This document shows, in pieces, positions 35,072 to 62,460 of a stretch of 64,000 bases of DNA. The notes below the pieces were generated by a model, which made no database searches, was not told the origin of the DNA, and saw nothing but the letters and a program-made list of their open reading frames with translations. Positions within the stretch are counted from its first letter, which is position 1. Each line of letters begins with the position of its first letter. The stretch covers positions 1 through 64,000 of the forward strand of contig NZ_ML660026.1 in the NCBI RefSeq assembly GCF_007004645.1. Direction: 5' to 3'. This DNA comes from Aliiroseovarius halocynthiae. GTDB lineage: Bacteria > Pseudomonadota > Alphaproteobacteria > Rhodobacterales > Rhodobacteraceae. A program made the translations under genes and the position numbers.

Positions 35072-35914
35072 CTAACTACAGGTTTCGGGGAACGACCGCG
35101 CCTTAGCTACCGCATCGAGCGCGGCTAAGTCAGAGAGAAGCGATCCCATGTCATCAATGGGTATCATATTAGGACCATCGGACGGCGCATTGTCAGGATC
35201 CTGATGCGCCTCGACAAACACGCCTGCCACTCCAACGGCAACCGCAGCGCGCGCCAACACTGGCGCGAATTCCCGCTGACCGCCAGACGCGCGCCCCTGC
35301 CCTCCTGGCATCTGGACAGCATGGGTCGCGTCCATGATCACCGGACAACCGAGTTCTGCCAGTTGCGGTAGTGCTCGCATATCGGTGACCAAAGTGTTGT
35401 AGCCAAAGCTGGTTCCCCTTTCGGTCAACAAGATTTGAGAATTCCCTTCAACAACCAACTTTTCCACTACATTCTGCATGTCCCATGGGGCCAAAAACTG
35501 TCCCTTCTTCACATTCACAGGTCTATCTGTGGCCGCTGCTGCCAGCAACAGGTCTGTCTGGCGGCAGAGAAACGCTGGGATCTGCAAAGCGTCCGCGACC
35601 TCGGCCACGGGGGGGCACTGGTTGGGCAGGTGTACGTCTGTTAACACCGGCACGCCGAGCTCTGCCTTCACGCTCGAAAGCATCTCCAACCCCGCCTCCA
35701 TTCCCGGTCCACGTTTCCCGTGCGTAGACGTGCGATTGGCCTTATCGAAGGATGCTTTGAAAACAAAGCCAACACGCGCCTTCTGACACGCAACGAGCAA
35801 ACGTTCCGCCAGAAACAAGGCATGATCGCGGCTCTCTAACTGGCATGGCCCCGCAATCACCGACAAAGGCAGACGATTTCCGAAGCGCACTGAACCTATC
35901 GCAACCTCGGACAT
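35072..35914 (-). CDS. kdsA: 3-deoxy-8-phosphooctulonate synthase (KDO-8-P synthase)
   Basis: Condenses phosphoenolpyruvate with arabinose-5-phosphate to KDO-8-P, the precursor of Kdo in lipid A core and in the poly-Kdo linker of group 2 capsules. 280 aa with the motifs [60 protein letters not shown] and the C-terminal [18 protein letters not shown]. It starts 1 bp after the kpsE stop, so it is in one operon with the capsule export genes. That position suggests a capsule-dedicated copy; a second copy for LPS would normally be near kdsB or eno. Confidence 0.94.
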
Positions 35915-35915
35915 A

Positions 35916-37568
35916 TCAGGACGAAATCTGTTCGCGTAGGATCGACGCAGTCAGGGACAGCATCAAATAGATCCCCGAAAAAATCAAAAACGCCAGCAGC
36001 GTGTTTTCAAACGCCTTCGGATAGGTCGGCTGGTCCGGCGCAACGGGGCTGACGTTTGTGGATAGATAGCGGGTTTGCTTGTTGGCCTCGATCCGAGCGA
36101 CCTCAAGCTGCTGCAGCGCCTGTTGCATCAGAAGAGTCCGGGTTTCAAGGTTTGTTTGCGCAATACGCAACTGCCCGCTGATCGACGCCAGCGATCCTTT
36201 TTCACCGCCGGTATCAGTCAAACGCCCGCGAAGTTCGGCGATCAGACTTTCAAGCCGCGAGATGTCTCCTCGCACACCATCGACGCGGGCTTGATTCGGG
36301 CTAGTATTATCCAAGAGCTGCTGGAGTCGCAGTCGTTTATCCTGCAATTGAAGCTCATAAGTGTTGATCTGAGACATCAACGAAGACGCATCCGAGGTCG
36401 CATCGAACACCCCGACCTCTTCTTGCAAAGCCAAGACACGGCCTTGAGCGGCCAGCATTTCACGCTCAGCCTCTTCATAGCTGTTTTGAGCACCTTCCAT
36501 CTGATCTTCCCGCTTGCGCTGGGTCAGATTATCAACGCGCTCTTCAGCATAGGAAATCAATGCCTTCGAATATAGCTCACTCAGCTTTGGTGACGGGGCG
36601 ACTACTTCCATCTTGATGATGCCTTCGGTCGGATCAAACCCAATTTTCACCCGCTTTCGATAGGCTTTATAGGCCGTTTCGTTACTTGCACCTTGATCAA
36701 GCCGCTGAACAACATCAATTGACGGATCGCTGAAACTGTCTTTGAATCCGACGTCGCGGTCCAAGCGCAGCATAGCCTCGCGTGAAGTCAGGTAGCCCTG
36801 AACACCGATACTGTCTTGACTTGAGGCCAGCCCGGTTCCAGCGAAAAGCCCACTTGCGCCGCCGCCACTGCCGTCGGCCTGTTGGATAACAAACTCGGAC
36901 TTTGTCGCGTACATAGGCGTCGCGACGTTGTAATAGTAATAGCCCGCAGCAATGGTCGGAAACACCACAAAAAAGATCAATCGCAGTATCAGCATCTGCA
37001 GGTTACGACGCCGGCGGCGGGCAATGTCTCGTTGAATGTCGATGACCGATCTTGCGCGTGCGGCGGCATCGAATACACCGGGTCCGGGCACGCCCACTTG
37101 TGGCGCCGGCTGTGGCAAATTGGTCGACTTGCCATCCCCCTCGCCTTCGACCAGTTCAAGCATGTTCGCACGCTTAAAGGGATCAATCCCGGCGCGGCGC
37201 AATTTGATTACGGCATCATAATCGTTGTCAGCTTGCACACCGTGTTTCTGTGCCACACGACGGGCCATGCGCAGCTGGCGACCTGTCAGGCCTTCATTCT
37301 GTACCTGTGCGATCTCATCGGGGTTTGCGTCAGCGTCCGTTGCACCCGAGGGCCTTGTGTTGCGTTCGATACGCATGGCCGATTTGCCCGCCGCAGGCGG
37401 CAATCCGTCTTCTTGCGGAACGGCGGCCATCTGCTCAAGCGGATTAAGCTCGGCTTCCTTTCGGGAAGACGTTTCTTGTGACGCCTCCGAAGCGGCCTGC
37501 TCGGTCGCCGAAGCATGCTCTGATCCGCGTCGAATGCGATATCTGCTAACTTTGGGTTTGGTAGTCAT
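35916..37568 (-). CDS. kpsE: Capsule polysaccharide export inner-membrane protein (KpsE/CtrB family)
   Basis: A 550-aa inner-membrane protein of the polysaccharide co-polymerase 3 class (KpsE, CtrB, BexC, RkpR), which bridges the ABC exporter to the outer-membrane channel. A first 190 residues are polar and disordered-looking. The membrane helix is near residues 205-225 ([20 protein letters not shown]), a long periplasmic coiled coil follows (about 380-490, [20 protein letters not shown]) and a second helix closes the protein ([20 protein letters not shown]). The extended N-terminus is longer than in E. coli KpsE (382 aa). Its start at 37568 lies inside the end of kpsT (23-bp overlap). Confidence 0.88.
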
Positions 37569-38205
37569 AGAGCTGCTTCGCTTCTTCCAAAGTCTCGAAC
37601 TGACAAAACTGACCATTGGTCAGAACTGCGGCCGAGCTGCATAGTTTTTCCAGTGTTTGGGCCTGATGGGATACCACGATCACCGTGGCTTCTTTCAATC
37701 GATCCTGCAAGACGGTCCCGGCGCGACGATTGAATTCCGCATCCGTTGTGTGCGGCATACCTTCATCAATCAGGTAAATGTCGAATTCCATTGCCAGAAG
37801 CAACGAGAATGTGAATCGCGCCCGCATCCCGGCACTATATGTCGCAATCGGGAAGTCATAGTATTCTTCCAGGTTACAAAGCCAGCGCGTGAAGGCCTCA
37901 AGATAGTCGGGATCAAGCCCATAGAGCCGCGCGATATGGCGGGCATTGTCACGCGCCGACAGCTTGCTGACCACCCCGCCCATGAACCCCAATGGAAACG
38001 AAATCCGGCAATCGCGTACAATTTCGCCTTCATCCGGCTTTTCCAGCCCGGCCATCATGTTGATCAGTGTGGTTTTTCCCGTTCCGTTCGGCGCAAGGAT
38101 GCCAAGCGAATTTCCAAGTTCCACCCGGAACGAGGCCTGATCAAGAATGACCTTGCGTTGTTTCCCGGTCCAGAAGGACTTGCTGACATTTCTAAATTCG
38201 AGCAT
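37546..38205 (-). CDS. kpsT: Capsule polysaccharide export ATP-binding protein (KpsT)
   Basis: A 219-aa ATPase energising export of group 2-type capsular polysaccharide, working with a KpsM permease. Walker A is GILAPNGTGKTTLI, the Q-loop region FPLGFMGGVVSKLSARDNAR, the atypical signature TYSAGMRARFTFSLL instead of LSGGQ, Walker B FDIYLIDEGM and the switch region VIVVSHQAQTL. This pattern is characteristic of KpsT/CtrD. First gene of kpsT-kpsE-kdsA. No kpsM, kpsC, kpsS or kpsD is in the window, so the locus is split. A 208-bp gap upstream contains the promoter. Confidence 0.9.
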   Translation of the reverse strand: MLEFRNVSKSFWTGKQRKVILDQASFRVELGNSLGILAPNGTGKTTLINMMAGLEKPDEGEIVRDCRISFPLGFMGGVVSKLSARDNARHIARLYGLDPDYLEAFTRWLCNLEEYYDFPIATYSAGMRARFTFSLLLAMEFDIYLIDEGMPHTTDAEFNRRAGTVLQDRLKEATVIVVSHQAQTLEKLCSSAAVLTNGQFCQFETLEEAKQLYDYQTQS

Positions 38206-58142: not shown

Positions 58143-59495
58143 TTACAGACCAGTCACGCGATGCGGTTCGTAGATCTCGATGATCTTGGCAATTGCCGCT
58201 TCTGGCGTCATCTCTTCACTTTCGCCGGTTCGGCGGCTGGTGACTTCAACCACACCATTTTTCAGCCCGCGCGGGCCCACGGTGATGCGCCACGGCAGAC
58301 CGATCAGATCCATCGTCGCGAACTTGCCGCCAGCACGTTCCTTGCGGTCATCATACAGCGGTTCAAGACCCGCATTGGTCAGCGCCTTATAAAGCGCCTC
58401 GCATGCCTCATCCGCAGCCTCGTCGCCCTGTTTCAGGTTCACGATGCCACAGTGGAACGGGGTCACACCTTCGGGCCAGATGATGCCGTTGTCATCATGC
58501 GACGCTTCGATGATCGCGCCCAGCAGTCGGCTGACGCCAATCCCGTGCGAGCCCATGTGGACCGGCACCTGCTTCTGTTCGCTGTCGATCACCTTGGCGT
58601 TCATGGCTTCCGAGTACTTTGTGCCGAAATAGAAGATTTGGCCAACTTCGATTCCACGCGCAACGCGGCGGCGATCCTCGGGGACGTCATTGAACAGCGC
58701 TTCGTCATGGGTCTCGTCGGTGCGCGCGTATTTCGATGTGAATTCCTCGAGCACGCCTTGACACTGCGCCACGTCATCATAGTCGATCGCACGATCGCCG
58801 AAAGTCAGGTCGGTGACGGCGCTGTCATAGAACACTTCCGACTCGCCGGTTTCGGCTAGCACAAGGAATTCGTGCGTATAGTCGCCACCAATCGGGCCAC
58901 CATCGGCGCGCATCGGGATGGCCTGCAGGCCCATACGCTCGTAGGTACGCAGATAGCTGACCAGATGGCGGTTATAAGCGTGCAACGCATCTTCTTTGGT
59001 CAGGTCGAAGTTATAGCCGTCCTTCATATAGAACTCGCGGCCTCGCATCACGCCGAAACGCGGGCGGATTTCATCCCGGAATTTCCACTGGATTTGATAG
59101 AGGGTCAGCGGCAGGTCCTTATAGCTCGACACATTCGAGCGGAAGACGTCGGTGATGACCTCTTCATTGGTGGGACCATACAGCATGTCGCGCCCGTGGC
59201 GATCTTCGATGCGCAGCATTTCTTCGCCGTAGTCGTCATAACGACCACTTTCACGCCACAGGTCGGCGGGTTGGATCGTCGCCATCTGCATCGGAATGTG
59301 ACCCGCGCGGATCTGTTCTTCGTGCACGATGTTTTCGATCTTGCGCAGGACTTTGAAGCCAAGCGGCAGCCACGTATAAATCCCGGCGGCTTGCTGTTTG
59401 ATCATACCGGCCCGCAGCATAAAGCGGTGGCTAACGATTTGAGCATCGGCGGGGGTCTCTTTCAAGACCGGAAGGAAATAGCGAGTCAGGCGCAT
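58143..59495 (-). CDS. proS: Prolyl-tRNA synthetase, alphaproteobacterial short type
   Basis: Charges tRNA-Pro with proline. 450 aa: a class II synthetase with motif 2 [20 protein letters not shown] and motif 3 [14 protein letters not shown], plus the C-terminal anticodon-binding domain ([20 protein letters not shown]). It lacks the roughly 180-aa INS editing domain of E. coli ProRS, as in other alphaproteobacteria. So Ala-tRNA-Pro editing would need a free-standing YbaK/ProXp. Divergent from the frameshifted membrane-protein gene. Confidence 0.96.
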
Positions 59496-59624
59496 TAGGA
59501 CCTCTTATTTCATGTTTAAGAAGCGAGTTACGGGAAAACGCTGCATAGTGCAATTTTTCCTGCGGTTGCACTTGTGACCTACAATCGTTTATCCGCATTT
59601 AGAGCCACTTGGAAGGTCACATGT

Positions 59625-60781
59625 ATGCTCCAAACTGATGCTGGAACCCGATCGGAAACTCTGCCTAAGGCAGGTGTTGGCATCGTTTTGCTCGTCAGCA
59701 CAATGATTGTGCTGATGGGCCTTGCCTCAGACGTGGTGAACGGTGGGGACAAATGGCACCAAGGGGACTGGCTGATACATGATCTGAATGGCGCAGTTCG
59801 CCGCGGTGCGTTTGGCCGTTGGATCATTCTGTTTTCAGACGCATTGGGGCTATCTCCGGTTTGGACCGCAGCCTTCTTCCAAGCCGTGATTACAATCAGC
59901 ATTCCTGTGCTGTTTTGGCGCATTTCCAGCGCTGTCGGAGCTTGGTCTGCAACTCTGTTGTTGATCAGTACGCCGGCAATGATCTTTCTTTTCTGGGCTG
60001 GCGACATACAGGGCGCGCTTCGAAAAGAGATCATCGGCGTCCTGGCGGTGTTATTCGCGGGAATTGGCGTCGCCCGCGGTCAGTTTGTTCCGGCAGCACT
60101 TGGGGGGTGATCCTTGCCGCCGGCGCGTGGGGGCATATTATCAACGTCCTAATGGCTCCGCTTTTCCTATCCGTTCTGTGGATCGGACGGGCGCGCTTCC
60201 CCACACAATCGTCTGTTGTGGTCCTTGGATCGACCGTGATCATATTGTGCGGGCATGCGTTGTTCTCTGCCCTCAGCCACGCTCAGATCAGCTCGACCGA
60301 CCCAATCTGCGATGCGCTGACACAACGTGGGATTCACCCCGCGATCTGCGAGGGCGCGATTTCCTATTTAGACAAAGACAGCTCTCACGGCTTGAAGAAA
60401 GTCGCGGATAAGTTCTTGAACACAGAAGCCTTGCCGGACATTGCACTATTAATGGGCTTAGCGCTTCTCGCACCCATTATCTTCGTGCTGCAACATCACA
60501 TTGCCCGCACTGTTGCTTTGGCGACTGCGTTATCTGGCGCAGCACTGCTTCCACTCTTTTTTGTGGCCGTTGACTGGGGCCGCTTTGTCAGCGTCCAGAT
60601 CTTTGGATTTTCGGTGTTAATGATGGTCGGATACCTGACCGGGGCCGTCCGGGAAAAGCGCCAGATTACACCGGGGCAAATTTTGGTCTGCCTCGTGATT
60701 GGGCTTATCTTCTCGATTGGGCATGTCAAAGGCGTTTCAACTTTGGGAGCTCTGAGCAGCCTGTATTTGATACTTCAATGA
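59625..60781 (+). pseudogene. Multi-helix membrane protein, frameshifted in a G6 tract
   Basis: Two overlapping ORFs join into one polytopic protein of about 385 aa if one G is added to the run of six G at 60102-60107. The first half (start ATG 59625, GGAAGG 8 nt upstream) ends GQFVPAALGG at the tract and the second half continues from GVILAAGAWGHIINVL in the -1 frame. Hydrophobic segments occur throughout both halves (about nine helices). I know no family with confidence; architecture resembles polysaccharide-related polymerase or glycosyltransferase membrane proteins. The tract could be a sequencing error, a dead gene, or slippage-based phase variation. Local base composition is somewhat lower in GC than that of its neighbours. 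Confidence 0.65.
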
Positions 60782-61000
60782 TACTTGGCTAACCTTGCGC
60801 GTCGCGTCCAGCCTTTCCGAGATCTTATTTGCGACCGGAAGAAGGCTCTCCGGAACAACTGGCGACAAATTATCACCCGTCCCTAGCAACCATTCGAAGT
60901 TTCCATCTACGACGACCTGACACCGCCCAGCCTGAAATACTACAGGCAACACTTCAAGCGCCGCTCATGATTGCAGGAAAGGCTTGAATGAGGCCGCTGG

Positions 61001-61192
61001 CTAGATTGAACCACCCAAGCTGACAGAGACTTTCGTCTTGGAATGCGGCGTTGTCTTGCCGTTCTCATATTTAATGCCAACGCCGGCCTGGCCCGAGACT
61101 GTCACACCCGGCTCTCTCGGCTCGTATTGATGCCCTTCACATGCCGCAAGCAAGCATAAGACGGCAACCGCAGCAATCGCTGGCTTCATCAT
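61001..61192 (-). CDS. Small lipoprotein, hypothetical
   Basis: A 63-aa protein with a lipoprotein signal: MMKPAIAAVAVLCLLAAC, lipid on Cys18. The short mature part EGHQYEPREPGVTVSGQAGV and GIKYENGKTTPHSKTKVSVS looks like one or two beta hairpins. AAGGAC precedes the ATG at 61192 with good spacing. No family recognised. It sits between the frameshifted gene (plus) and the AI-2E family gene (divergent). Confidence 0.6.
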   Translation of the reverse strand: MMKPAIAAVAVLCLLAACEGHQYEPREPGVTVSGQAGVGIKYENGKTTPHSKTKVSVSLGGSI

Positions 61193-61371
61193 AAAATGTC
61201 CTTCCAAGGTCTAACGACCGCATTTGAGCCGCAGCAACGTCCCGGGCGCAAGCAGTTTCCTGAAAATGGTGCGAAAAACTGCCGATGAGAACAAAAACTC
61301 GATTTGCGCCTGCCCTTGAAATACCCGCTGGCTTGGGCGACATAGATGAAAGTTCATTTATCGGAGCCCTT

Positions 61372-62460
61372 ATGCCGCTTCCCGTTCAAACTCAGGCCAA
61401 GTATTGGTCCATCGCAATTGCCATTATCGCCTTGGCCTTGTGGTTCCTAGGCGATGTTATCATGCCCTTCATCCTAGGAGGCGCGATTGCGTATTTCCTG
61501 GACCCGGTGGCAGATCGGCTGGAAAGGGCGGGACTGTCGCGAGTTGCCGCGACGGTCGTCATCTCGCTTATCGCGATGCTGATTGTGATCCTTGGCTTCT
61601 TGTTGGTTATCCCCTCGTTGGTCTCGCAAGCCATAGCTTTGGCCAATGCTGCCCCTGATCTATTGCGCGAACTTCAGACATTCCTGACCGAGCGGTTCCC
61701 GTCGCTGATGGATGAAAGCTCGACCATTCGCCAGTCGTTGGAAAGTCTGGGTCAGAAAATTCAAGAACGCGGGGGCGAGCTGGTGGGCACTTTGCTGTCA
61801 TCCGCGATGAGCGTGATCAACATTGTGATCTTGCTGGTGGTGACTCCCGTGGTGGCCTTCTATCTGCTGCTGGACTGGGACCACATGGTCGCACGGATTG
61901 ATCAGCTTTTGCCGCTGGATCATCGCCCAGCCATTCGCGAAATCGCCCACAACATTGATCGTACATTGGCCAGTTTCATTCGCGGCCAGGGCACGGTCTG
62001 CATTGTTCTGGGCACATATTATGCGGTCGCCCTGATGGTGGTCGGCCTAAACTTTGGCCTTGTGGTCGGCTTCATCGCCGGCCTGATTACCTTCATCCCA
62101 TATGTGGGGGCCTTGGTGGGGGGCGCATTGGCCATCGGTCTGGGCCTGTTCCAGTTCTGGGGCGAATGGTGGAGCCTTGGCGCAGTGGTCATCATCTTCG
62201 CGTTGGGCCAATTCTTTGAGGGCAACATCCTGACGCCCAAACTGGTGGGCAGCTCGGTCGGACTGCATCCTGTTTGGTTGATGTTTGCTCTGTCCGTCTT
62301 TGGGTCGCTTTTTGGGTTTGTCGGTATGCTGGTGGCGGTTCCGGTTGCGGCCTCCATCGGGGTTGTGGCGCGGTTCTTTATCGCGAAATACCAGACCGGG
62401 CGGCTATATCAGGGCGTCGCTGGGCGCGACGCTGCGCTGGACGAGGACGTAACGAAGTAA
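61372..62460 (+). CDS. AI-2E family transporter (PerM/YdiK family)
   Basis: A 362-aa inner-membrane protein with about eight helices of the AI-2E exporter family. Features are the start MPLPVQTQAKYWSIAIAIIA, GGAIAYFLDPVADRLERAGL, the amphipathic region LDHRPAIREIAHNIDRTLAS, LIGL-type FIPYVGALVGGALAIGLGLF and the closing GFVGMLVAVPVAASIGVVAR. Members transport autoinducer-2 (TqsA), sodium/proton or unknown substrates; AI-2 is not established here. The start at 61372 has GGAG 6 nt upstream. Its TAA overlaps the ATG of hdaA by 1 bp (TAATG). Confidence 0.9.
   Translation: MPLPVQTQAKYWSIAIAIIALALWFLGDVIMPFILGGAIAYFLDPVADRLERAGLSRVAATVVISLIAMLIVILGFLLVIPSLVSQAIALANAAPDLLRELQTFLTERFPSLMDESSTIRQSLESLGQKIQERGGELVGTLLSSAMSVINIVILLVVTPVVAFYLLLDWDHMVARIDQLLPLDHRPAIREIAHNIDRTLASFIRGQGTVCIVLGTYYAVALMVVGLNFGLVVGFIAGLITFIPYVGALVGGALAIGLGLFQFWGEWWSLGAVVIIFALGQFFEGNILTPKLVGSSVGLHPVWLMFALSVFGSLFGFVGMLVAVPVAASIGVVARFFIAKYQTGRLYQGVAGRDAALDEDVTK

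Follow-up and report, generated by a model that had tools for sequence, protein, structure and literature searches.

Analysis of a stretch of the Aliiroseovarius halocynthiae genome, 64 kb in length and referred to here as the window, revealed what is probably a single-copy accessory gene for a GT-C-type membrane glycosyltransferase, acquired and then recently inactivated by one base at an ordinary run of six G residues. The gene belongs to a family with no describing model in the Pfam and NCBIfam databases.

Structure of the split gene

The N-terminal part of the gene occupies positions 59625-60110 of the forward strand, as established from the sequence, its translation and alignment. Its frame starts at the ATG at 59625 and encodes 161 aa, followed by a TGA stop codon at 60108-60110. 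This codon lies directly 3' of the run of six G (60102-60107, forward strand), the point at which the frame is lost. The C-terminal part (60101-60781, forward strand), recognised as an ORF and from homologue matches and alignment, continues the same protein in the adjacent frame, which is open up to a stop at 60779-60781; a GTG at 60107 overlaps the TGA. The window sequence thus confirms the initial annotation in that six G are immediately followed by TGA and the protein is continued in the adjacent frame. The length of about 385 aa that it proposed for the product after addition of one G also agrees with the sequence, since 386 codons would need just one base more than the 1157 nt present. 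The N-terminal part carries the motifs of the family, namely the invariant GDWLI and RR, together with RKE. A minus-strand ORF at 60740-60952 had no match in Pfam.

Homologues and gene family

Scanning GTDB contigs with a profile identified 44 loci, of which L122 was excluded from the counts, being a 28% partial match close to a contig end. Among the remaining 43 loci the frame is open across the matched region in 42 (the ORFs of L085 and L121 extend to the contig ends), and L088 was left out of the alignment for its internal stop, so that 42 sequences were aligned. In homologues, the N-terminal and C-terminal halves match one after the other within one and the same ORF. In the alignment, the end of the N-terminal piece and the start of the C-terminal piece share one column, situated between conserved blocks, which points to a single-base lesion at or near the G run. 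At the level of sequence comparison it is thus shown that the two frames of the locus are one protein in the homologues, and a chance pair of ORFs is ruled out by the ordered matches and the shared column.

The N-terminal half found matches in 12 of 394 genomes of the taxonomic family, the own genome counted, and in 18 of 390 genomes of the order. The C-terminal half, a less sensitive query, had none in 100 other relatives, and a contig scan with the N-terminal half alone gave no match. The viral contigs searched contained no match to the gene, and the plasmids searched yielded a single record, from Ruegeria conchae, with the N-terminal half and none with the C-terminal half. Neither half has a usable match in Pfam or NCBIfam; four intact homologues (L079, L093, L098 and L086) all stayed below the Pfam cut-offs, and a fifth, L104, had no Pfam match at all. 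Judging from these searches, the sequences appear to form an uncatalogued family of about 390 aa, mostly from Rhodobacterales. On the phylogenetic tree the window gene groups with L093; support is modest (80/87) and the branch long, and no inference is therefore drawn from its position.

A variable slot between conserved flanks

The gene was absent from all 20 genomes of congeners searched. All 19 congeners examined retain the flanking genes. The left one (58143-59495, minus strand), conserved in 19 of 19, is presumably a prolyl-tRNA synthetase-like gene. The right flank consists of a small lipoprotein-like ORF (61001-61207, minus strand), also conserved in congeners, and a gene at 61285-62460 (plus strand), which we take to encode an AI-2E-type transporter-like protein and which served to locate the slot in relatives. 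DNA similarity to the congeners ends at about 59505 and returns at about 61001, and comparison between the two conserved flanks delimits an exchanged segment at 59506-61000 without DNA similarity to the congeners' slot.

The content of the slot varies. In nine of the 19 congeners a gap of approximately 1.5-1.7 kb holds an intact ORF for an FAD-dependent oxidoreductase, a family name taken from the ORF of one of them, and in nine others the gap measures at most about 260 nt, six of these being judged by match coordinates alone. In the one remaining congener (G004) the oxidoreductase ORF is itself truncated (2961-3650 of L047), which points to repeated turnover at this site. A search of the own genome gave no close copy of the slot oxidoreductase. 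The third-position G+C content of the two halves of the split gene is 0.58 and 0.63, compared with 0.62-0.74 in ten genes of the window. The split gene was probably acquired, since it is missing from 20 congeners and the slot is filled by an FAD oxidoreductase in nine of 19; the content of a variable slot has been exchanged here, with horizontal transfer as the most likely route.

State of the gene around the lesion

Apart from the break, the gene is well preserved. Of the 30 strongly conserved columns, defined as the same in at least 90% of homologues, the window copy keeps 28 (18 of 18 before the break and 10 of 12 after it). The two alterations are E170 to I and W317 to F. The former was dropped as a sign of decay, as I occurs in three of the 42 homologues and L in one; the latter is seen in none of the 42 and could represent either divergence or the start of decay. 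The frame is broken relative to intact homologues, as in a pseudogene, and the further scattered lesions of one are lacking: no second lesion, stop or frame change occurs in the gene. Preservation of the rest of the gene implies a recent lesion, a harmless one or an error. The break corresponds to residue 159 of homologue L079, which lies within a transmembrane helix (152-168) of the predicted model of that protein.

Damage was also seen elsewhere in the family. L088, from a metagenome assembly, has one nonsense codon around position 1545 in an otherwise continuous frame. Fourteen further loci were examined: 12 have a single open frame, L151 gave no match, and L149 (G679) carries a frameshift around residues 77-81, where the sequence is CT-rich, and differs at two more conserved positions. 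L149 was considered as a second slippage switch and rejected in favour of decay, given that its break is CT-rich instead of a G run and that two conserved positions are changed. Sites and lesions differ among these copies, which fits a dispensable gene that is lost now and then.

Origin of the frame loss

The initial annotation had suggested a frameshifted membrane protein that is either a phase-variable switch or a dead gene; the frameshift and the dead gene fit the data, and the switch gained no positive support. As we read it, an accessory gene would have been acquired into the variable slot, and a single-base change at the six G, real in the organism, would have inactivated it before any further decay set in; the 161-aa fragment, cut within a helix, would then be inactive. 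Patchy occurrence, acquisition and one inactivating lesion are what the gene shares with recently inactivated accessory genes (pseudogenes), and L088 and L149 likewise have single or few lesions, at other sites. Unlike a typical pseudogene, it lacks a second lesion, and the base in question is known from the assembly consensus alone. No further broken conserved genes came to light in the window, in keeping with recent loss.

A base error in an intact gene, or continued synthesis of the product, would account for the preserved sequence equally well. The main rival of recent loss is accordingly an assembly or base-calling error, by which the consensus dropped one homopolymer base of a gene that is intact in the organism; we regard it as rather unlikely. 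The gene is otherwise fully preserved, such errors fall in homopolymers, and the assembly is a draft in 29 contigs. Against this, six bases are short for common read errors, other G or C runs of six or seven sit in ORFs open over their full length, and when ORFs of three congeners were compared with the window, near-full-length matches numbered 22, 21 and 23 and no true split was seen. Five split matches in this comparison were traced to antisense or over-extended ORFs, the real genes being open. Widespread faults in the assembly are made unlikely by this comparison; a single wrong base is not. Such continued synthesis seems improbable, whether through -1 frameshifting at the six G, transcript slippage by RNA polymerase or a restart at GTG 60107 that yields two coupled polypeptides. 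In the P site GGG can re-pair one base back with TGA in the A site, the GTG overlaps the stop, and both halves look constrained, as expected of recoding or of a split protein. However, programmed -1 frameshifting uses a slippery heptamer of the form X XXY YYZ and a stimulating structure, and neither was found: T GGG GGG is not of this form, and the downstream RNA folds no better than shuffled sequences (z -0.30). None of the 42 homologues shares the arrangement, and according to the structural model a restart at 60107 would begin within a helix.

Phase variation, in which slippage at the G tract would toggle a surface-glycan enzyme within the population, is judged very improbable. The tract, the frame and the likely surface role match the pattern, and short tracts can vary, as in two Bordetella strains of which one has a C6 and the other a C7 allele (PMC1891110). 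The location of the lesion does not discriminate, since plain loss or error also falls at homopolymers. The run of six is below the screening cut-off of seven or more G or C applied by PhasomeIt to Campylobacter (PMC6321876), where tracts of 9 and 10 predominate. Comparable tracts are common: the window contains 21 G or C runs of at least six, 20 of them within script-called ORFs, and G7 occurs 228 times in the genome when both strands and overlapping matches are included. The tract is not conserved: at up to 30 nt from the site, none of the 42 homologues has a G or C run of at least six, and the run is of five in five of them. The split gene resembles the poly-G phase-variable genes of Campylobacter and Neisseria in its loss of frame within a run of G and in its likely surface-glycan role, but their tracts are mostly of 9-10 (PMC6321876), whereas the one here is of six and not conserved, and no second allele of it was seen. 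In a survey of 99 genomes (PMC2831843), poly-C and poly-G tracts are generally under-represented, and a single-base loss in an A7 tract has arisen at least twice. A literature search on phase variation at homopolymeric tracts in Rhodobacterales found no paper. A switch would be unusual for this group, and the proposal of one lacks support, given the tract of fewer than seven, the absence of a run in 42 homologues and the damage of two other members at other places. The six G are an ordinary tract, and nothing marks them as a switch.

Predicted GT-C-like membrane glycosyltransferase

An AlphaFold2 model of the intact homologue L079, computed with 40 sequences, has a mean pLDDT of 91.4. Helix 1 comprises residues 5-36, short helices follow at 43-47 and 59-72, and then come more long helices. 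GT-C enzymes are described in PMC11127046 as having 7 to 13 transmembrane helices and a small extracytoplasmic part after helix 1, and the helix arrangement of the predicted L079 model agrees with this description. Foldseek gave no match in the PDB at E 0.001; its top matches, ALG9, EmbB and AftD, had non-significant E-values of 0.05-0.11 (best 0.046). VIA-align returned GT-C enzymes nearly throughout its list, with Z scores of 12.0 for Pmt4 and 11.8 for OST and AftD, where Z below about 13 is no proof for helical proteins and 12 can be reached by unrelated ones. A profile search of the sequences of solved structures found no match, and neither did a viral fold library at E 0.001. GT-C enzymes have a conserved acidic residue in the first extracytoplasmic loop, and Asp46, located after helix 1, is present in all 42 homologues and in the window copy; it fits a GT-C active site, where it may be catalytic. 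Overall, the predicted model of the intact homologue appears to resemble GT-C glycosyltransferases, a class of lipid-sugar-dependent transferases.

By structure comparison, the mycobacterial arabinofuranosyltransferases AftA, AftB, AftD and EmbA-C may have a similar overall fold, and the neighbours of the homologues include DprE1-like and DprE2-like genes; in contrast to these enzymes, the present family is much smaller and has no sequence match to solved structures. In the part of PMC11127046 that concerns GT136 and Citrobacter youngae O1, HAD and UbiA modules making polyprenyl-phospho-pentofuranose are combined with a flippase and a GT-C transferase. With such three-component systems the homologues' loci share a HAD-UbiA fusion and GtrA among their neighbours. 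They differ from the C. youngae system, as described there, in having GtrA instead of a MATE flippase and in the addition of DprE1-like and DprE2-like genes, and the family, at about 390 aa, lacks the C-terminal domain of GT136 ORF12 (652 aa), a comparison made by description only.

Gene neighbourhood and proposed donor pathway

Of the 43 homologue loci, 15 have a HAD-UbiA phosphoribosyltransferase gene in the flank, eight of them with all four genes, including GtrA, DprE1-like and DprE2-like; 28 loci do not show it, the loci are not independent, and no flank extends beyond 8 kb, many being shorter. The link is weakened by six further homologue loci from a separate genome search, none of which has a HAD-UbiA neighbour (a fragmentary match in L082 was not counted). 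The Ruegeria conchae homologue stands among genes for a glycosyltransferase, a flippase, polysaccharide export, UbiA, GtrA, an FAD oxidoreductase and an SDR. Its neighbours pass the UbiA and GtrA family models, and NCBIfam relates them to decaprenyl-phosphate phosphoribosyltransferase, DprE1 and DprE2, all below the cut-offs. Exosortase, GT2, DegT and asparagine-synthase genes are near the homologue in Litoreibacter ascidiaceicola, and several homologues, like the window copy, are located apart from such genes.

Within the genus, 20 of 21 genomes (this one counted) have a HAD-UbiA gene, and the transferase was found in no congener searched, so the donor pathway is common and the transferase optional. 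From the gene neighbourhood, we read the protein as an accessory transferase of polyprenyl-phosphate-linked pentofuranose. The intact enzyme would move pentofuranose from its polyprenyl-phosphate donor to a glycan outside the cytoplasm, and HAD-UbiA, DprE1-like and DprE2-like enzymes, whose genes lie elsewhere in the own genome, may supply the donor. A literature search on the DprE1 pathway in Alphaproteobacteria found none; it retrieved PMC11127046, on three-component systems.

More broadly, we tentatively suggest that this compact, mostly rhodobacterial GT-C family might complete a HAD-UbiA/DprE1-like/DprE2-like/GtrA pathway, giving arabinofuranose-type surface sugars by a mycobacteria-like route, with the transferases gained and then lost or switched by frame lesions. 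If this holds, the surface would change by gain, loss or switching of a single transferase while the donor pathway stays. The main value of the locus is the GT-C-like family rather than the tract, as the neighbours indicate one donor pathway and make the function directly testable.

In the own genome, HAD-UbiA, SDR (DprE2-like) and DprE1-like genes are found together beside the Flp pilus genes for CpaB and TadA (8496-12088 of L160, which is C1:860000-879999). Pentofuranose decoration of the pilus or of another surface structure is possible. Within the window, a DAHP-synthetase-family gene, which we take to be KdsA-like, an unassigned 566-aa ORF and an ABC ATPase gene lie together at 35072-38205 and are possibly involved in capsule export.
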